This document shows, one piece after another, positions 15,433 to 27,564 of a stretch of 64,000 bases of DNA; the stretch's first letter is position 1; each line of letters starts with the position of its first letter. Under the pieces are notes generated by a model, which had not been told where the DNA came from, ran no database searches, and saw nothing but the letters and a program-made list of their open reading frames with translations. The translations under genes and the position numbers were made by a program. This DNA comes from Methylocystis echinoides (GTDB lineage: Bacteria; Pseudomonadota; Alphaproteobacteria; Rhizobiales; Beijerinckiaceae): assembly GCF_040687965.1 (NCBI RefSeq), contig NZ_CP156085.1, positions 62,001 through 126,000 on the forward strand, read 5' to 3'.

Positions 15433-16569
15433 TTGACGCCTTCACGTTTTCGCCTTGGGCTTGTCATCGCGATGAGCATGATCTTCGCCTGGCTCCATTT
15501 TGGCGAAAGGATCGCGCCGCGCCCGGCCTCCGATCTCGATTGGCGGCAGGATGGGCGGTTGCACGTGTTTTTTTCGCAGGACTGCCCTCATTGCCACGAA
15601 GCCATTCAATACCTCAAAAGCCAGCCTCGTATCGATTATGTCCTGCACGACGTCTCGAAACCGACAAGCGAAGCGCTGTTGCGTCGGGTAGCGAAGCACT
15701 TCAGCCTCACGAAAATCGGCGTGCCGCTCTTCGTCTATGGTTCCCGCTATCTGATGGGCTTTGAGTCGGCGGAGACCACGGGGCGCGAACTGCGAGAGCT
15801 GATGAGCGACAAATCCGCAGTCGGGCGTCAGGCGGCTGAAAGCGCGCCGATTACGCTGCCCTTCATCGGCGAAATCGACCCCACGCATCATTCGCTGCTT
15901 GCGCTCACAGCGCTGATGGGACTTGCCGACGGCTTCAATCCTTGCGCCATGTGGGTGCTGATTTATCTGATTTCGCTGATCGTCGCCATCCAGGACCGCC
16001 GTAAGATCTGGTGGCTCGTCGGCACATTCGTGCTCGCTTCAGGGATACTCTATTTTCTGTTCATGACTGCGTGGCTGAACACCTTCCTCTTCATCGGATA
16101 CGTCAAGCCGCTCACGCAGCTGATCGCCTTGCTTGCGATCGCCTTCGGTCTGGATCACCTATTCGCCCTCGCCGTCAACCGCGGCGAGGTTGCCTGTGAG
16201 GTAGGGGATGTCGCGCAACGGCGGCGAACCATGCGATGGGAACGCGAAGTGGTCGCCGCCCCGGTCGGAATCGTCAGTCTGCTCCTCATCATCGGTCTTG
16301 CCTTTACGGTCAATGCGATCGAGTTCGTGTGCTCCGCGGCGTTGCCGGCAATCTACACACACCTGCTTTCCCTGACCGATTTGCCGACTGGCCTGCACTA
16401 TGCGTACATCGCTCTTTACGTGACCTTTTTCATGCTGGACGATCTTGTCATCTTCGGCTTTGCGGCCTTTGCCGTGCAGAAAATCATCGACACCCGCTAC
16501 GCGGCGATCAGCCGCGCCATTGGCGGCCTTGTATTGATAGGCCTGGGGGGCTGGATGCTCGCGCGCTGA
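15433..16569 (+). CDS. Thioredoxin-like (CPHC) plus CcdA/DsbD-type membrane protein
   Basis: About 378 residues. After a membrane anchor (residues about 7-23) comes a glutaredoxin/thioredoxin-like domain with LHVFFSQDCPHCHEA (CPHC at about 51-54) and the cis-Pro strand GVPLFVYG. Six or so membrane helices follow (LTALMGLADGFNPCAMWVL, WWLVGTFVLASGILYFLFM, LTQLIALLAIAFGLDHLF, IVSLLLIIGLAFTVNAIEFV, and a C-terminal pair), with Cys in FNPCAMW and IEFVCSA at the positions where CcdA/DsbD shuttle electrons. It probably moves reducing equivalents across the inner membrane to its own thioredoxin domain, for disulfide reduction or cytochrome c assembly. TTG 15433 is the suggested start, giving the anchor; ATG 15472 is the alternative. 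Confidence 0.75.
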   Translation: MTPSRFRLGLVIAMSMIFAWLHFGERIAPRPASDLDWRQDGRLHVFFSQDCPHCHEAIQYLKSQPRIDYVLHDVSKPTSEALLRRVAKHFSLTKIGVPLFVYGSRYLMGFESAETTGRELRELMSDKSAVGRQAAESAPITLPFIGEIDPTHHSLLALTALMGLADGFNPCAMWVLIYLISLIVAIQDRRKIWWLVGTFVLASGILYFLFMTAWLNTFLFIGYVKPLTQLIALLAIAFGLDHLFALAVNRGEVACEVGDVAQRRRTMRWEREVVAAPVGIVSLLLIIGLAFTVNAIEFVCSAALPAIYTHLLSLTDLPTGLHYAYIALYVTFFMLDDLVIFGFAAFAVQKIIDTRYAAISRAIGGLVLIGLGGWMLAR

Positions 16570-17164
16570 AGTTGGGAGGCGGACAGGCCTCTTTTTGCAA
16601 TTTAACCTGCAAGCGCAGTCGTCTCCGGTGGAGCGGTTCACGTCGCGCCGCGGCGGTCACCAGAAATCGTTTGCTTCGTAAGGCGATGGCCGGCAGGGCG
16701 ATCGCGAACTCCTCGGGTAGATTATGCAAGGCGATTGAGACAGCGACCAGAACTCCAAGCCCGGGAGAAGCGATATAGGCGTTTGCCATCGCGAAGCCTT
16801 CGCCGACATCGTGAAGGATGAGGCCGGTCGCCACCAGGGACGCGGAGCTTGCAAGACGAGCGTCAGCCTCCCCGTGCTCGGGTCCGAGGTGAATGTGTCG
16901 CAGGATCGAGTTGGCGAGCCAAAGGACCGCGCCCCCGGACAACGTGGCCCAGGCGACCTGCGATTTGCCGAGCTTCAGATAAGCTTCCGATATCAAGTCC
17001 ACGCCAGAGATGAGGAGCATGATGCCGGTCGAAAAGCCGACCCCAATGGCGATTGCCCGGTCGTTGGCGTGAATAAGCGAGGCCAGGGCGACGCCCAAGA
17101 CGGTCGTCATTACCGAGAGCGATGACAAGGCGAGCACGGCGCCATAGGGCAATTCCACTGTCAC
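16508..17164 (-). pseudogene. ZIP-family metal transporter, C-terminally truncated
   Basis: The frame starts at GTG 17164, one base after the ferritin-like stop, and encodes the first five or so helices of a ZIP transporter: GAVLALSSLSVMTTVLGVAL, AIAIGVGFSTGIMLLISGVD, and the metal-site helices LVATGLILHDVGEGFAMA and VSIALHNLPEEFAIALPAI. After LRSKRFLVTAAA it turns into an Arg-rich, non-membrane tail that overlaps the 3' end of the convergent CcdA-like gene. About 80 residues (three helices) of a normal ZIP are lost. Both metal-site motifs are present but the protein is probably non-functional. Confidence 0.65.
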
Positions 17165-17165
17165 T

Positions 17166-17579
17166 TCAGGACCGAGACTCGCGCTCTAAACACCTCTGAA
17201 ACGCCGGAAGGTGACGCTCCTGTGACGCAGTTTGCAGACGACGCATGACCTCGCGCGCCCGCGGGTCAGTGATCTGCGCGAGCAATCGGTCGTACATGGC
17301 GGCGTTCTCGATCTCACCCTTGACGCCCGCACGGCAGGCTTCGAGCAGAGTGGCCGGCGCCGGAACGCGTCCCGCCCAATTGTCCTTGGGCGGCTCCACG
17401 CCGAAAAATTCCAACAGATTGACGAGGGCGCCCGCATGGCGCTCTTCCGCTTCGACGATGTTGATGAAGGGACGGACCGGACCGAACGCCTCGATGACGC
17501 TGCGATAAGCGGCGCGGGAGCGGTATTCTTCATCGAGCGCCTCGCACAACGCCTGAATGGTTTTTTCATCTGCGAGCAT
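17166..17579 (-). CDS. Ferritin-like four-helix protein
   Basis: 137 residues, starting at ATG 17579 behind GGAG. Two helix pairs carry Glu and His in ferritin-like spacing: ALDEEYRSRAAYRSVIEAF, NIVEAEERHAGALVNLLEFF, GVKGEIENAAMYDRLLAQI and TASQERHLPAFQRCL. The E-x2-H in EAEERH and the ERH near the C-terminus are typical di-metal ligands. The family (ferritin-like, sometimes annotated DUF2202) is thought to bind or oxidise iron, but many members are uncharacterised. The truncated ZIP gene follows with translational coupling, linking it to divalent metal handling. Confidence 0.75.
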   Translation of the reverse strand: MLADEKTIQALCEALDEEYRSRAAYRSVIEAFGPVRPFINIVEAEERHAGALVNLLEFFGVEPPKDNWAGRVPAPATLLEACRAGVKGEIENAAMYDRLLAQITDPRAREVMRRLQTASQERHLPAFQRCLERESRS

Positions 17580-17952
17580 GGCGACACTCCAATTTGGCGA
17601 CCTCTTTTTAGCCGCATTGCGAAAGACCTGGTAGATGGGCAATCTCCAGATAGGAAGCATTGCGAGGAGGCTCAAGGAATGCGGTTAGCCGGCCTTGAAA
17701 CGGACAAGAATACAGCTTGGAAAATCGGAAGCGCCATTTTTAGCGACCATCCGCCGCACCCTGTGCGAGATCATCTGAAACCCTTCAGAAAATCGCCCCG
17801 ACTGGCTGTTTTTTCAGTCGTTGACGCACGCCTTCTATCGAAGGCGTCAGGTCCCTCCAATTCGGCGCGGTCTTGAAAAGCATGGCGCCGCCAGCTTAAT
17901 CTCACGCGATGAATGGCTGAGAAACCAAAAAGGACATTTAACGGGGAGCGTC

Positions 17953-18610: not shown

Positions 18611-21600
18611 TCATTTTGAAGACTTCGGCGCACGAATGATCCCCAGGGAGATCGTCGGGTTAGCCAGTGTTCCCCCCGCGCGTCCATCCGAAGCGCGCCT
18701 GCTGGAGCCTTTCGCCTCGAGGCGTGCGGCGGCAATTCCCATCTTTTCAAGCTCACGCTTGACTGTCTCAGCTCGCATCCTCCCGAGAGTCCGGCTCGCC
18801 CTCGTGTCGCGCGTGTCATCCGGGAAGCCAACGATCAACGTCCTGGCTTTCGGATAGGCTGCGAGAATTCTTGCGATGTTGTGCAGTTGCTCCCGTGACT
18901 GCAAAGTTGGCGCGCCGTCGCCGGGCGAGAACTGAACGCGGTCGAGATCAAACCAGACAATCCGGTTTGATGGCTCGGCCGTCTCGCCAAGGAGCTCCAT
19001 CAATCTGGCTTCAACGCTGAGCTTCGGAAAGGCGAGGTCAGAGCCATATGGCGGGTGCTGCGGCGGTTTATCCTCAATCACTCCGGGCGCGGGGATCTCT
19101 GGTTGACGCCGATCCCCCGGCCTTTCAGCTTTCATTTTTGGAGATATTGGCGCAGCCGGCTCGGCTGATTGCTCCTCCTGCGCCGGAGCCGGCCGAAGTC
19201 GCTCCTCCGACCGTTCAGCGACTTCTTTTGAATCGCGCTCTTTGAGGCCGTAGCTAACCGCGATCGCGCCGAGTCCGACCGTTAACAATGCGGCGGAAAA
19301 GGCCAATGCGACGCGGCTGCGGTTTGGGGCGCGCGCCGCCGTTTCTCGACCGTCGGCAGGGTTGATCGGTGCTGATGGCGTTGCGTTCGAATCGAACGGA
19401 GAGAAAGCCATCGCCGTGACGCCCAGAAGGGAAAAATACAGCAGGATTCCCAGCACCCATGCTGCGGATGAGATGGGATGGGCGGCGAATGTTCCAATCT
19501 GGTAAAACAGCACCGCCATCCCATAGCCGAGACTGATCGTCCAGAACACCATGAAGCCAGTCCATCGTTGGTTGGTCTCACGCGCCGTCGCCGCTGTGGT
19601 GGCGATGCATGGATAACACAGCAGCAGAATCAGATAGGCGAGCGCTGAAACCCTCCCTTCGAAATGTTCGGCGAGGGCAGGGACGAGATCGCTGCGAGTG
19701 GCATGTCCGCGCGCGCGCTCACGCGTTTCCGCGGCGCCGACGAGCTTATCGGCGGTCGAATGGGCCTGATCCCCTCGCCCGAGCCCTACGAGAGCCATCA
19801 AGTTTTGAGGAATGGTCAGAGCCGCCCTCTTGATCCTTTCCACTGGGTCGAAGGCTTGCGCCGGCGCTGTCGGTTTTGCCTCCAGGTAAATCGATTCCAG
19901 CGTGCTGACGATGACGACCTTGTGCAAGACGCCGGTCAATAGCGCGACTGCAGCCGGCCATTGATCCTGCGCCACGCCCATCGGCGCCAGAATCGGCGTG
20001 ATCGCCCGCCCGCCCGCCGCAAGCACAGACTTATCGATCGGCTTTTTGTCGAAAGATCCGTCTGTCCCCCAAACGCCCAGCACCTTGACGATGAGCACCA
20101 GGGGAATGATGAACTTGCCGACCCGGAACACGAAAACTTTGACACGTATCCAGGCGTTAATCAGGACATTCCGCAGCTTCGGCAGGTGGTAGGGCGGCAG
20201 CTCCAGCGCAAACAGCGAGCGCTCTTGCGGGAGCAGGCTGTTCTTCATGATGAGCGCGGAGATCATCGCGAAGACGACCCCAAGCAGGTAAACGCTGAAG
20301 ATCACAAAATGCCCCGTCTCCGGGAAAAAGGCTGCGGCGAAGACCGTGTAGACCGCGAGCCGCCCGCCGCAGCTCATGAATGGGCTCATCAACACAGCCA
20401 CAATGCGGTCTCGTGGCCTCTCCAGGGTCCGCGTCGCCATGATCGCCGGCACGTTGCAACCGAATCCGACCATCATCGGCACGAATGCATTTCCCGGAAG
20501 CCCCAAAGACTGCATCAGTCGGTCCATGACGAAATTGGCTCTCGCCATGTAGCCGGATTCCTCGAGGACCGACAGAAATAGGTAAAGAAACCCGATGATC
20601 GGAATAAAATTTATGACCTGCAACACGCCGTTGCCGAGGCCGTCAGCGAGAAACGCGACGAACCAGGAGGGAGCGTCAAGCATTGTCAGGACATGCCTGA
20701 ACCCTTCGACAAAAAGCGTGTCCGAAACCTGATTGAAAAATGGCTTGAACGCGCGGCTGAACTGTATGGTCAACCAGAACAGGCAGTACATGACCGCGAG
20801 AAAGATGGGAACGCCAAGCGCACGATTCAGGACGATGCGATCAATCGCAGTTGTTGAGCGCCCCTCTGCCTTTACATGCTTGGTCGCAGCCTTGGCCGCT
20901 ACTGTTCGGATGAAGCTGTAACGAGCATTGGCGATAACGATGTCGGGCTCGTCCAATTCCAGGGCGATTTGACGGACGCGCTCCTCTGCGGCTTCCCTTA
21001 TTGCAGGGTCGGCCGCGTGCGCGGCGAAAGCGTCGCTTTCCAACAATCGAATCGCCAGCCAACGGTTATCGAAGTGGCGCGCATACGAAATATCGCTCAT
21101 CGATTTAGACAGCTCCGAGATGGCCATTTCGACTGGAGGAGGATATGTAATTGTGAAGCTTGCTTCCGGCCGCGTCTCGATCAGTCTCAGCAACTCCGCC
21201 TTCAATAGCTCTGCGTCACGTTTCCTCGTGGCCACGAGCGCCACGACGGGACAACCGAGCAGGCGCGCAATCTCATCCAGGTCAAATCTGGCGTGAGCTT
21301 CGGCGTCTTCCATAACATTGAGAACGACGACCAAAGGGACCCGCATTTCCAGCAGTTGAGTCGTCAAATAAAGGTTTCGCTCAAGATGACCGGCGTCGAC
21401 GATGTTGACGACGCAATCCGCTTCGCCCGACAGGATGTACTCTTGCGCAATGCGTTCATCGACGGCGGCCGCCTCCTCGTAGGAGTCGAGTGAGTAGATC
21501 CCGGGCAAGTCGACAAGCTCGACCTTTTGCCCCGCGAGGTCGAAGACGCCGACCTTTTTCTCGACTGTGACGCCGGGCCAGTTTCCGACACGCTGCTGAA

Positions 21601-21937
21601 CGCCCGTCACGGTATTGAACAGGGTGCTCTTGCCGGTGTTGGGATTCCCGATAATCGCGAATTTGAATGCCCGATTTTGAGCGTCCCCAGTTTCGGCCTC
21701 GCCGCTTATCCTTTCGATCAGTAAGGCGGACGCCTCGTTCCTGCGCATGCTGAGAAACGTGTCCCGCACGCGGATTTCGACCGGGTCGCCGAGAGGCGCA
21801 AAACGCACGACGGTAAATTCGGCGCCGGGCGTCAGGCCGAGCGACAGCAACTTTTGCCGGTGGGCGATGCCGCCTTTCCGGAAACCCGAGACGCGAGCTC
21901 GATCGCCCGCTTTGAGATCGCCAAAGCCGAGTGTCAT
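18611..21937 (-). CDS. feoB: FeoA-FeoB-OmpA fusion: ferrous iron transporter with periplasmic OmpA-like tail
   Basis: 1108 residues, clearly longer than usual FeoB (about 770). Domains in order: FeoA SH3-like domain (about 1-78, LKAGDRARVSGF, RQKLLSLGLTPGAEF); FeoB G domain (about 90-260) with G1 GNPNTGKST (97-105), G2 VGNWPGVTVEKK, G3 DLPGIYSL and G4-like NVMED; a GDI-like helical region; the membrane core with both Gate motifs, including GFGCNVPAIMATRTLE and PFMSCGGRLAVY, and the late helix LLLCYPCIATTAATARE; then an extra single helix (ALAFSAALLTVGLGAIAVSY, about 870-890), a Pro/Glu-rich linker and an OmpA-like domain (about 1000-1108: VWFDLDRVQFSPG, TLIVGFPDDTRDTRAS, MRAETVKRELEKMG). The tail should lie in the periplasm, where OmpA domains bind peptidoglycan. 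All GTPase residues look intact. Start ATG 21937 sits 360 bp from the divergent partner genes. Confidence 0.9.
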   Translation of the reverse strand: MTLGFGDLKAGDRARVSGFRKGGIAHRQKLLSLGLTPGAEFTVVRFAPLGDPVEIRVRDTFLSMRRNEASALLIERISGEAETGDAQNRAFKFAIIGNPNTGKSTLFNTVTGVQQRVGNWPGVTVEKKVGVFDLAGQKVELVDLPGIYSLDSYEEAAAVDERIAQEYILSGEADCVVNIVDAGHLERNLYLTTQLLEMRVPLVVVLNVMEDAEAHARFDLDEIARLLGCPVVALVATRKRDAELLKAELLRLIETRPEASFTITYPPPVEMAISELSKSMSDISYARHFDNRWLAIRLLESDAFAAHAADPAIREAAEERVRQIALELDEPDIVIANARYSFIRTVAAKAATKHVKAEGRSTTAIDRIVLNRALGVPIFLAVMYCLFWLTIQFSRAFKPFFNQVSDTLFVEGFRHVLTMLDAPSWFVAFLADGLGNGVLQVINFIPIIGFLYLFLSVLEESGYMARANFVMDRLMQSLGLPGNAFVPMMVGFGCNVPAIMATRTLERPRDRIVAVLMSPFMSCGGRLAVYTVFAAAFFPETGHFVIFSVYLLGVVFAMISALIMKNSLLPQERSLFALELPPYHLPKLRNVLINAWIRVKVFVFRVGKFIIPLVLIVKVLGVWGTDGSFDKKPIDKSVLAAGGRAITPILAPMGVAQDQWPAAVALLTGVLHKVVIVSTLESIYLEAKPTAPAQAFDPVERIKRAALTIPQNLMALVGLGRGDQAHSTADKLVGAAETRERARGHATRSDLVPALAEHFEGRVSALAYLILLLCYPCIATTAATARETNQRWTGFMVFWTISLGYGMAVLFYQIGTFAAHPISSAAWVLGILLYFSLLGVTAMAFSPFDSNATPSAPINPADGRETAARAPNRSRVALAFSAALLTVGLGAIAVSYGLKERDSKEVAERSEERLRPAPAQEEQSAEPAAPISPKMKAERPGDRRQPEIPAPGVIEDKPPQHPPYGSDLAFPKLSVEARLMELLGETAEPSNRIVWFDLDRVQFSPGDGAPTLQSREQLHNIARILAAYPKARTLIVGFPDDTRDTRASRTLGRMRAETVKRELEKMGIAAARLEAKGSSRRASDGRAGGTLANPTISLGIIRAPKSSK

Positions 21938-25235: not shown

Positions 25236-25405
25236 ATGGCGCTCGGCTTCAACGCTACGCCTTGACTAATTGCCGCAAGGGGTGTGAACAGGCCGCGCAG
25301 TGCGTATTCTGCAAGAATCCGCCGATTGGGTGCAACCGTTGAATTTGAGGAGAAATCAATCGATTACTAGGATGCGCGGGTTTTCACATGAAGGAGGCAA
25401 AGGGA

Positions 25406-26140
25406 ATGAAGAACATAACTGCCGGCGTCGCCGCCGCCCTGCTTTTGGGCGGTTTTTCGGCCATTGCCCAGGTTCCAGCGGACTCGCCGCCTGCGAAGAT
25501 GATGGAGCATGGCGCTGGCCACAAGATGGGCGATCACAAGGGTATGAGCGGCGACGGCGCCTATCACCATCGCTTCGAGGACGCCGAAAAATGGGCCAAG
25601 CAATTCGACAAACCCGAGCGCGACGAATGGCAGAAGCCTGATCAGCTTCTCGACGCTTTGAAGCTTCCGGCGAACGCTTCGGTCGCCGACATCGGAGCCG
25701 GCACGGGCTATTTCTCGGTGCGCATCGCCAAGCGAGCGCCGCAGGGCAAGGTCTTTGCGGCGGATGTTGAGAAAGATATGGTGCGTTATCTCGGCGAACG
25801 CGCGAAGAGGGAAGGACTGAGCAATGTCACGCCGGTCCAGGCCGCGCCGGATACCGCCAATTTGCCCGAGCCGGTTGACGTGATCCTGCTCGTTGACACC
25901 TATCACCACATCGGAAATCGCGTCGATTATTTCAAAATGCTGCAGTCGTCCCTGAAGCCCGGAGGAAAGCTCGTGATCGTCGACTTCCGCATGGACAGCC
26001 CCGAGGGCCCGCCGAAGGAGCATCGCGTCTCCATCGAGACGACGACCGAGGAACTGAAGTCGGCAGGATATACGCTGGTCGAGACGCAGGACTTCCTGCC
26101 GCGGCAGTATTTTGCGGTCTTCAAGAAAAGCGGCGCCTAA
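25406..26140 (+). CDS. Exported class I SAM-dependent methyltransferase
   Basis: 244 residues from ATG 25406, which has AAGGAGG eight bases upstream. Residues 1-22 form a signal peptide (ITAGVAAALLLGGFSAIAQ). A His/Met-rich stretch follows (MMEHGAGHKMGDHKGMSG). The rest is a Rossmann methyltransferase: motif I VADIGAGTGYFSV, motif II VFAADVEKDM, NVTPVQAAPDTANLP, the post-I DVILLVDTYHHI and LKPGGKLVIVDF. Cytosolic homologues of this UbiE/arsM-like group are common; leader peptides are also known in proteobacteria. How SAM would be available outside the cytoplasm is unclear, so it may be retained by an uncleaved leader. The His/Met segment suggests metal contact (inference). Confidence 0.8.
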   Translation: MKNITAGVAAALLLGGFSAIAQVPADSPPAKMMEHGAGHKMGDHKGMSGDGAYHHRFEDAEKWAKQFDKPERDEWQKPDQLLDALKLPANASVADIGAGTGYFSVRIAKRAPQGKVFAADVEKDMVRYLGERAKREGLSNVTPVQAAPDTANLPEPVDVILLVDTYHHIGNRVDYFKMLQSSLKPGGKLVIVDFRMDSPEGPPKEHRVSIETTTEELKSAGYTLVETQDFLPRQYFAVFKKSGA

Positions 26141-26220
26141 GCCCAGGCGAGGCGCGTGACGATTTGGATTGCCCGCCGTCGCGACGCGCCGGTTCTTGCA
26201 GTCTTCAAACAGAGCGGGCA

Positions 26221-27564
26221 ATGACGGACGCGCGCGCGCCAGGTTCACGTCTTCTTGATTATCGTGGCGCAGTCGCGCTGGTCGTGGCCAACACCATTGG
26301 AACTGGGGTCTTCACGACCTCGGGCTTCGCGCTCGCGGACCTGGGGTCGCCGGAGCGGGTCCTGCTGGCGTGGCTACTTGGGGGAATTTACGCCCTTGCC
26401 GGCGTGGCGATCTATGCCGACCTGGCGATGCGCTTTCCGAGATCGGGCGGCGAATACGAATTCCTGCGACAGACCCTGCATCCCGCTCTTGGAACGGTCG
26501 CCGGCTGGATTTCGCTCGTCGCCGGCTTTTCCTCTCCGATCGCGGCCGCGGCGCTCGGGGCTCAGCTTTATATAGCCAGGGCATTTTCGCTTGAGCTGGC
26601 TCTGCCCTGGATCGCGACCGCCCTGACGCTGGTCCTTGGGCTCATGCACGCTTTCGCGCCGCGAGCGGGGGTGCGTTTCCAGAACGCCGCGGTGCTCATC
26701 AAGATCGTCGCGATCCTGATTTTCATCGGCTTCGGCGCCGTGCATACCGGCGACGGGTCCTTCCCGGAGGCGCCCTCGGAGGCGGCGCCCTTCTCGATTC
26801 TGGCGCTCGGCGGCGCGCTAGTCTGGATTACCTACGCCTATTCCGGCTGGAATGCGGCCGTTTACGTCACGGGCGAGGTGGAGGGCGGCGGCGGCGCCGT
26901 CCGACGCGCCCTCTATTCGGGGACGCTGCTGGTCACGGCGCTCTATCTCGGCGTCAGCGCTGTGATCCTTTTCAGCGCGCCGCCTTCGGCGCTCTCCGGC
27001 GTCGCGGAATCCGGAGCGGTCGCCGCGCGGGCCTTCGGCGGCCCACGCGCCGAGCAGGCGCTCAGCTCCCTCATCGCCCTCGCGCTGCTGACCTCCGCCT
27101 CATCCATGCTGTTGAGCGGGCCGCGCGTCTATGCGCAAATGGCGCGCGACGGCGCGCTGCCGGCCGTTTTCGGTCGCCTCCAGGGAGAGCATCCGCGCAT
27201 GGCCGTCCTGGCGCAGACGGCGATATGCCTCGTCATCATTTCGAGCGCCGGCCTGAGGTCGCTCCTGGAGTTTGCCGGCGTCTCTCTGAGCCTGTCGGCC
27301 GGCGCGGTGGTGGTCGGCTGGCTGCGGCAGGAGTTTTCTAAAAGGAGCCGCCCGAGGCCGCTGCTGCTCGCCGCCGCCGTCTTGTTCCTTGTCGCGACCA
27401 TGGGGATCGCCTGCGCGGGCGTCGTCCTGCGACCGCTTTCCGTCGCCGCGGCGATCCTTCTGATCTGTTTTGGACTGGCCGCGCATTATGGCGCAGCGAT
27501 GAGGAAATCAAAGGCTCGATCGGCGAGCGATACCCAGCAATCCGATCAGTCATGGACTTTTTGA
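26221..27564 (+). CDS. APC-family amino acid permease
   Basis: 447 residues with about 12 membrane helices. The N-terminal helix contains the APC signature VALVVANTIGTGVFTTSGF (helix 1 unwound Gly-Thr-Gly), followed by LLAWLLGGIYALAGVAIYAD and the PRSGGEYEF loop, which is typical for amino acid/polyamine/organocation exchangers. WITYAYSGWNAAVYVTGEV corresponds to helix 6. The substrate cannot be deduced. The start ATG 26221 follows GAGCGGGCA; the frame upstream is not membrane-like. It lies 80 bp after the methyltransferase gene on the same strand. No catabolic partner genes are adjacent. Confidence 0.85.
   Translation: MTDARAPGSRLLDYRGAVALVVANTIGTGVFTTSGFALADLGSPERVLLAWLLGGIYALAGVAIYADLAMRFPRSGGEYEFLRQTLHPALGTVAGWISLVAGFSSPIAAAALGAQLYIARAFSLELALPWIATALTLVLGLMHAFAPRAGVRFQNAAVLIKIVAILIFIGFGAVHTGDGSFPEAPSEAAPFSILALGGALVWITYAYSGWNAAVYVTGEVEGGGGAVRRALYSGTLLVTALYLGVSAVILFSAPPSALSGVAESGAVAARAFGGPRAEQALSSLIALALLTSASSMLLSGPRVYAQMARDGALPAVFGRLQGEHPRMAVLAQTAICLVIISSAGLRSLLEFAGVSLSLSAGAVVVGWLRQEFSKRSRPRPLLLAAAVLFLVATMGIACAGVVLRPLSVAAAILLICFGLAAHYGAAMRKSKARSASDTQQSDQSWTF

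Follow-up and report, generated by a model that had tools for sequence, protein, structure and literature searches.

An OmpA-like C-terminal tail on the FeoA–FeoB transporter and other ion pumps of Methylocystis: a candidate wall tether

Introduction

Why would an iron transporter of the inner membrane end in a domain of the kind that binds peptidoglycan? This question was raised by a 64,000-nucleotide stretch of Methylocystis echinoides DNA (contig NZ_CP156085.1, positions 62,001 to 126,000; hereafter the window, with positions counted from its first letter), in which one gene encodes FeoA, FeoB and an OmpA-like domain. A sequence-only reading had proposed this three-part fusion and had suggested that the tail could anchor the transporter to the wall or to an outer-membrane partner. 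Accordingly, the gene, its relatives and the distribution of its tail were analyzed.

Architecture of the fused transporter

The FeoA–FeoB–OmpA observation was confirmed. The frame at 18611–21937 starts with ATG and runs for 1108 residues without interruption, and the opposite (plus) strand is rich in stop codons; the reading frame was intact as proposed, with the strand corrected to minus. All domains scored above the Pfam gathering cut-offs in the expected order, namely FeoA, FeoB_N (residues 92–247), FeoB_Cyto (265–350), Gate in two stretches, FeoB_C (546–598) and OmpA (1011–1085). With FeoA placed N-terminal to the G domain within a single frame, the protein is a FeoAB fusion, and it also exceeded the cut-offs of the NCBIfam feoB model TIGR00437 (564 against 315.65 bits) and of PRK09554 (739.2 against 683). 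A hydropathy scan placed one additional hydrophobic helix (876–894) downstream of the last FeoB core helix, followed by a segment rich in P, E and A (895–1000), which bore out the extra helix and the Pro-rich linker described ahead of the OmpA domain. This was the only FeoAB–OmpA gene in the genome, a four-contig assembly of 4.35 Mb in which the window lies on a 299-kb contig.

The identity of the C-terminal region was examined by domain search and structure prediction. The OmpA model PF00691 gave 31.7 bits against a gathering cut-off of 27.2, and the predicted structure showed an OmpA fold with good local confidence across most of the domain, so the absence of such a fold, which would have spoken against the earlier reading, was not seen. 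The added helix was modelled with a predicted local distance difference test score (pLDDT) below 50, as was most of the linker. The predicted domain matched solved peptidoglycan-binding OmpA domains, and MotB was among the structural matches. The diaminopimelate ligands of Acinetobacter baumannii OmpA are given as D271 and R286 (PMC6572160). On alignment with 3td3, their equivalents in the window tail were D181 and R196 (tail numbering), and this pair, with a spacing of 15, was invariant in all six aligned sequences (the window, four P-type ATPase tails and one standalone protein). Both ligands and the fold are common to the C-terminal domain of OmpA, Pal and YiaD; those proteins are outer-membrane or lipid-anchored, whereas here the domain is borne by an inner-membrane transporter.

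Recurrence of the tail on other pumps

As the tail might not be limited to FeoAB, 39 Methylocystis genomes were searched with a tail profile (E ≤ 1e-12), the frames were read, and a representative protein of each type was checked with Pfam and NCBIfam. Ten of the 39 genomes, counting the window's own and one with a remnant, had pumps ending in the helix–linker–OmpA tail, so the arrangement recurs on pumps other than FeoAB. It was carried by P1B heavy-metal ATPases (genomes G016, G026 and G028), by P2-like cation ATPases (G004, G006 with two copies, G016, G017 and G019) and by a second, P2/P3-like type of cation ATPase present twice in G023, where one copy is a 723-residue frame without its N-terminal half. 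The remnant, in G031, is a truncated P1B ATPase with a decayed tail. The P1B ATPase tail also occurs on the complete Methylocystis rosea BRCS1 plasmid NZ_CP044329.1, where the protein is annotated as a heavy metal translocating P-type ATPase.

The search was extended to 298 genomes from 43 genera of the family using the Methylocystis-derived query, with no more than nine candidates scored per genome, so that weaker tails could escape. The methane monooxygenase gene pmoA was found in 41 of these genomes and in three of the genera. OmpA-tailed transporters were found only in the same three genera, which are related to one another (14 genomes plus the G031 remnant); one carrier, the metagenome-assembled genome G017, showed no pmoA. 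More divergent but comparable tails ended the CopA-type ATPases of Methylosinus and a further P1B ATPase. In the third pmoA genus, a TauE/SafE exporter carries an OmpA part, and the stretch aligning with the added helix is the TauE family's own last helix.

Confusion with ordinary OmpA proteins was considered and rejected, as none of the 58 other OmpA loci read from the family search resembled a known transporter. Each had at most four hydrophobic helices, and 51 had none or one, compared with 6–9 in four fused loci used as a yardstick. Three loci, L300 and L316 (genus g33, which has no pmoA) and L319 (g42, which we take to be Methylosinus), encode small proteins that have 3–4 hydrophobic helices and a linker rich in Ala and end in an OmpA domain; Pfam found nothing else above cut-off in them, and no known transporter domain. 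Since L300 and L316 belong to a genus without pmoA, an OmpA tail with an added helix is in itself not limited to the pmoA genera. In a sample of the order (297 genomes, E ≤ 1e-20, up to nine candidates per genome), 23 genomes matched, including the window's, and no transporter fusion was found outside the window's genome, long frames being viewed over the roughly 500 residues preceding the OmpA domain.

An OmpA-domain tree of 42 rows was built, two of the 44 prepared rows (the genome's own OmpA proteins, included as controls) having been dropped for want of a full match. The tails fell within one part of 27 rows, which had a support of 97/95 and was separate from the BON-type and other OmpA domains. 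Twenty-two of these rows carried the label fused; three of them (own_solo, G018_solo and Bin682_lipo) are non-transporters, and a fourth represents the G031 remnant. None of the remaining five rows is a transporter either, and a membrane helix, judged by eye, is likely in four of these. The place of the window inside this part was not settled by the tree. Two standalone proteins, L002 (G000, contig C1) and L147, have a single helix and a related OmpA domain after an N-terminal part that is soluble, and are possible donors of the tail. Taken at the sequence level, the window tail appears to exemplify a module that is found, in Methylocystis and its relatives, on inner-membrane metal and ion pumps of several unrelated kinds.

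LysM, SPOR and adaptor tails

The OmpA domain was also found to be exchanged for others, as surveyed for LysM and SPOR within the genus Methylocystis. In G023, the orthologous FeoAB shares 68% identity with the window protein over residues 1–944; it keeps the helix and the linker and ends in LysM (23.0 against 20.9 bits). One P-type ATPase of the window's genome, encoded on contig C3, has SPOR at its C-terminus behind a helix and an Ala/Pro linker (31.2 against 21 bits), and the same arrangement was found in two more genomes (26.0 and 23.3 against 21 bits); plasmid-borne homologues of this ATPase are annotated as proton-efflux ATPases. OmpA, LysM and SPOR are all peptidoglycan-binding domain families. 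Because they occupy equivalent positions, wall binding is the function to which the tail most readily points, and this forms the main argument for such a role.

Many Methylocystis P-type ATPases end instead in an added helix and a HlyD/CusB-like adaptor, with Pfam scores above cut-off in eight of the nine tested (L279 being the one that failed). The adaptor and SPOR loci came from 30 that were fetched, mostly for their long frames, among the listed P-type ATPases of the genus, so no prevalence can be derived from them. The adaptor-tailed ATPases are L272, L273, L275–L277, L279–L281, L283–L290, L294 and L295, those outside the Pfam test being judged by eye. Two of these lie in the window's genome (G000, contig C1): L277, confirmed by Pfam, and L279, judged by eye. 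An additional long N-terminal stretch is present in L272, L273 and L275, which in L273 is an AI-2E transporter domain. The adaptor-tailed ATPases are possibly trans-envelope ion pumps. In a plasmid collection, a query cover of at least 80% was reached in none of the 292 records matching the SPOR-tailed ATPase and in one of the 538 matching the adaptor-tailed ATPase, namely that of Methylocystis rosea itself.

Topology of the added helix

The C-terminus of Escherichia coli FeoB has been described as cytoplasmic (PMC10647171); with such an end, one added helix would place the OmpA domain in the periplasm. In 12 of 15 wall-binding tails, some of them near-copies, K and R were more frequent before the added helix than after it, which is what a cytoplasmic N side would lead one to expect. 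The test had been run on 24 rows, with the N side higher in 20; the nine HlyD-type rows were dropped as the helix was mis-set in several. The net charge around the window helix was +2 before and −1 after.

Proposed role and alternatives

Three different wall-binding domains sit in equivalent positions, and wall tethering is for this reason the best explanation of the tail; it is its most likely role, which we consider probable, though by no means certain. The protein would be a ferrous-type FeoAB transporter with a C-terminal tether. The FeoB core would terminate in the cytoplasm, and the added helix would recross the inner membrane, so that a flexible linker and the OmpA-like domain lie in the periplasm. 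There, the domain may grip the diaminopimelate stem peptide of peptidoglycan and thus hold the transporter to the wall, a task for which LysM or SPOR could replace OmpA. The analysis shows the architecture, the predicted fold, the retained ligands, the recurrence and the domain swaps; the topology, the binding and the purpose are deduced from them. Of the two anchors suggested in the sequence-only reading, the wall is favored by the tails on other pumps and by the LysM and SPOR swaps, and the outer-membrane partner is less favored.

Several observations weigh against wall tethering. The Pfam score of the window OmpA domain barely exceeds its cut-off, as do those of LysM and two of the three SPOR domains. 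The window domain lacks the GYG...P...N and NRR stretches that the aligned P-type ATPase tails keep (at the NRR site, ANPTISLG in the window against KNRRISLG or KNNRISLG, one P-type tail reading NNR). Both stretches are also missing from the Methylosinus CopA tails, in which the loop that separates the ligands is shorter. Moreover, by K and R count, the window is among the three exceptions to the charge test (four before and five after the helix). Tails are also rare on FeoB. A FeoB model search of the 298 family genomes found FeoB_C in 26 of them; of these 26 FeoB, 21 are frames of 611–869 residues and five, all in genera g1 and g42, have at least 1000; only two carry a tail (OmpA in the window, LysM in G023), and three have a long insert instead (G016, G004 and G174, the last by length and position only).

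Part of this evidence would also fit a passenger module that recombination carries between the pump genes of plasmids and chromosomes, under little functional constraint and already decaying in the window. The lost motifs of the window and Methylosinus CopA tails, the G031 remnant, the halved ATPase copy of G023, and the predominance of FeoB with no tail or with an unrelated insert are in line with such spread. However, the P1B and P2/P3-like tails retain the OmpA motifs, the frames are open in several species, and three different wall-binding domains stand behind an added helix in equivalent positions; we regard a mere passenger as unlikely.

The OmpA-like domain could otherwise bind an outer-membrane protein or lipoprotein, giving a trans-envelope complex that passes iron to FeoB. 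HlyD/CusB-like adaptors reach the outer membrane in other systems, and such adaptors follow the added helix in several Methylocystis P-type ATPases; OmpA-like domains also take part in protein complexes (YfiB–YfiR in the PDB). However, the diaminopimelate ligands are kept, and this partnering is made less likely by LysM and SPOR, as both are wall binders, which leaves it quite improbable.

The tail might also act as a sensor of the wall or periplasm that controls gating of the transporter, rather than merely holding it. The length and flexibility of the linker, the ligand-binding domain and the GTPase domain of the transporter would suit such a role. MotB, a structural match of the tail, couples wall binding to channel opening. 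Nevertheless, the same tail is borne by mechanistically unrelated pumps, which argues against specific gating contacts, and gating seems a remote prospect. Finally, an assembly or annotation join of two genes, named beforehand as what would overturn the fusion, is very unlikely, with a probability close to nil, because the frame is uninterrupted and the helix–linker–OmpA module ends unrelated pumps in other, independently assembled Methylocystis genomes, one of them the complete M. rosea plasmid.

A possible link to internal membranes

If wall tethering is accepted, a possible benefit in these methanotrophs would be that pumps stay in the peripheral inner membrane and do not enter the intracytoplasmic membranes. 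In Methylococcus, the internal membranes are described as continuous with the inner membrane and filled by arrays of particulate methane monooxygenase (pMMO), and the authors suggested that these arrays might exclude other enzymes (PMC9445010). Given such continuity, a wall-held pump could not drift into the internal membranes. That OmpA-tailed transporters were found, in the family sample, only in the three pmoA genera suggests retention at the cell periphery, and it is conceivable, although doubtful, that the pumps are tethered so as to stay out of the internal membranes. In the pMMO-bearing alphaproteobacterial methanotrophs, the added helix with its exchangeable periplasmic domain might accordingly be a sorting tag that keeps ion pumps peripheral, outside the pMMO-housing membranes, which is offered here as a tentative proposal. 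OmpA, LysM, SPOR and perhaps the HlyD/CusB-like adaptors would then bind something found only at the cell perimeter.

Two results speak against retention. In 100 genomes of a family bearing ammonia or methane monooxygenase, probably Nitrosomonadaceae, a search at E ≤ 1e-18 gave matches in 26 genomes, all in frames of at most 316 residues. In addition, the FeoB of the gammaproteobacterial methanotroph Methylotuvimicrobium alcaliphilum has 843 residues, leaving no room for a tail. As a general law for cells with intracytoplasmic membranes, the idea was weakened by the result from the 100-genome family.

FeoB core and neighboring genes

Motif alignment showed G1, switch I and G3 in the G domain. 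The earlier statement that all GTPase motifs are present held with one correction, as G4 reads NVME instead of NxxD; this position was E in four and D in 25 of 29 aligned FeoB. The first-gate Cys is retained (GFGCNVP). At the second gate, AKE or ARE, kept by 21 of the 29, is replaced by LHK with loss of the Glu in the other eight: the window, the Methylosinus C49 plasmid, G023, G016, G004, G310, G317 and M. alcaliphilum. Seven of these come from pmoA-bearing genera and one from the gammaproteobacterial methanotroph. The subtype residues of the window are 666–686 (19880–19942) and 207–210. On this alignment, the FeoB of methanotroph genomes appear to form a subtype (LHK second gate, with NxxE at G4 in four of 29), and the metal specificity of LHK-type FeoB may differ from that of canonical FeoB.

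The FeoAB orthologues L009, L010 and L008 (Methylocystis G016, G004 and G032) and L170 (Methylosinus C49 plasmid) have no tail. Near window residue 690 they carry a Pro/Ala-rich insert, the length of which, judged from the frames, is about 200–260 residues. The insert may resemble the C-terminal parts of relaxases; that of G016 gave no Pfam match.

Downstream of FeoAB, at 16508–17675, the window has ZIP-like and DUF2202-like genes, the DUF2202 match being below its cut-off. At L226, on the plasmid of M. alcaliphilum 20Z, DUF2202, FeoB, a P-type ATPase and ZIP stand in one row, which suggests a metal island common to this plasmid and the window. Methyltransferase and amino-acid permease genes lie near FeoAB at 25388–27564, and on the C49 plasmid (L170), FeoB is followed by a FeoC-like gene and then by a methyltransferase and an amino acid permease. 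Table 1 summarizes the features of the fused gene.

Table 1. Positions of the fused gene and its parts within the window
Feature	Position	Strand	Evidence
Complete FeoA–FeoB–transmembrane helix–linker–OmpA coding sequence	18611–21937	−	ATG at 21937, 1108 aa + stop
FeoA domain, residues 7–75	21713–21919	−	Pfam PF04023, 67.1 bits, cut-off 23
FeoB G domain, residues 92–247 (G1 97–105, G3 143–150, G4 NVME 207–210)	21197–21664	−	Pfam PF02421, 192.7 bits; motif alignment
FeoB cytosolic helical domain, residues 265–350	20888–21145	−	Pfam PF17910
FeoB membrane core, residues 373–846 (Gate, FeoB_C, second Gate region)	19400–20821	−	Pfam PF07670, PF07664; hydropathy scan
Added transmembrane helix, residues 876–894	19256–19312	−	Hydropathy 2.29; alignment with the added helix of P-type ATPase tails
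Pro/Glu/Ala-rich linker, residues about 895–995	18953–19255	−	Composition; overlaps first helix of predicted OmpA domain
OmpA-like domain, residues 975–1102	18632–19015	−	Pfam core 1011–1085 = 18683–18907

Relation to known systems and significance

The FeoA–FeoB fusion is already known, and the putative wall-binding tail on it appears to be new within the openly licensed literature searched. A separate FeoA, assumed as the norm in the sequence-only reading, proved a poor contrast, as an InterPro survey counted 2421 FeoAB fusions (PMC8980893), among them that of Bacteroides fragilis, in which FeoA precedes a complete FeoB as in the window. The sole extra partner named there is a Cys-rich membrane protein, in 10 fusions; about 45 of the 2421 fall outside the numbered classes, and the survey mentions no OmpA, LysM or added-helix tail such as that of the window protein. 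In openly licensed papers, no report was found of a FeoB or P-type ATPase with an OmpA, SPOR or peptidoglycan-binding tail.

There are precedents for inner-membrane complexes with OmpA-like tails. In the flagellar motor, MotB is a separate stator subunit whose C-terminal OmpA-like domain anchors an ion-conducting complex to peptidoglycan. MotB and PomB share with the window tail the order of inner-membrane helix, linker and C-terminal OmpA-like domain, and their structures matched; their anchor is a separate motor subunit, whereas that of the window is the tail of the transporter polypeptide itself. The Photosystem I protein PsaB (PDB 7f4v chain aB, presumably from Gloeobacter), also large and located in the inner membrane, likewise has an OmpA-like stretch at its C-terminus, which matched at E 6.9e-12 with the tail profile and at only 0.083 with the window tail alone. 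Unlike the window transporter, it belongs to a photosynthetic reaction centre of an unrelated lineage, and a literature search found no report of its OmpA-like tail.

On the basis of domain order, we propose a class of wall-tethered transporters, defined by an added helix past the core and a wall-binding domain, into which the window protein and the OmpA-, LysM- and SPOR-tailed transporters would fit. Transporters are usually pictured as moving freely within the membrane plane. If true, the tail on FeoB, on several classes of P-type ATPase and on TauE would mean that ion pumps are fixed in place in some bacteria, and would suggest, in a form open to testing, how cells rich in internal membranes hold their pumps at the true cell surface. 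FeoB would thereby gain a natural tethered variant for comparison with its tail-free and LysM-tailed orthologues.

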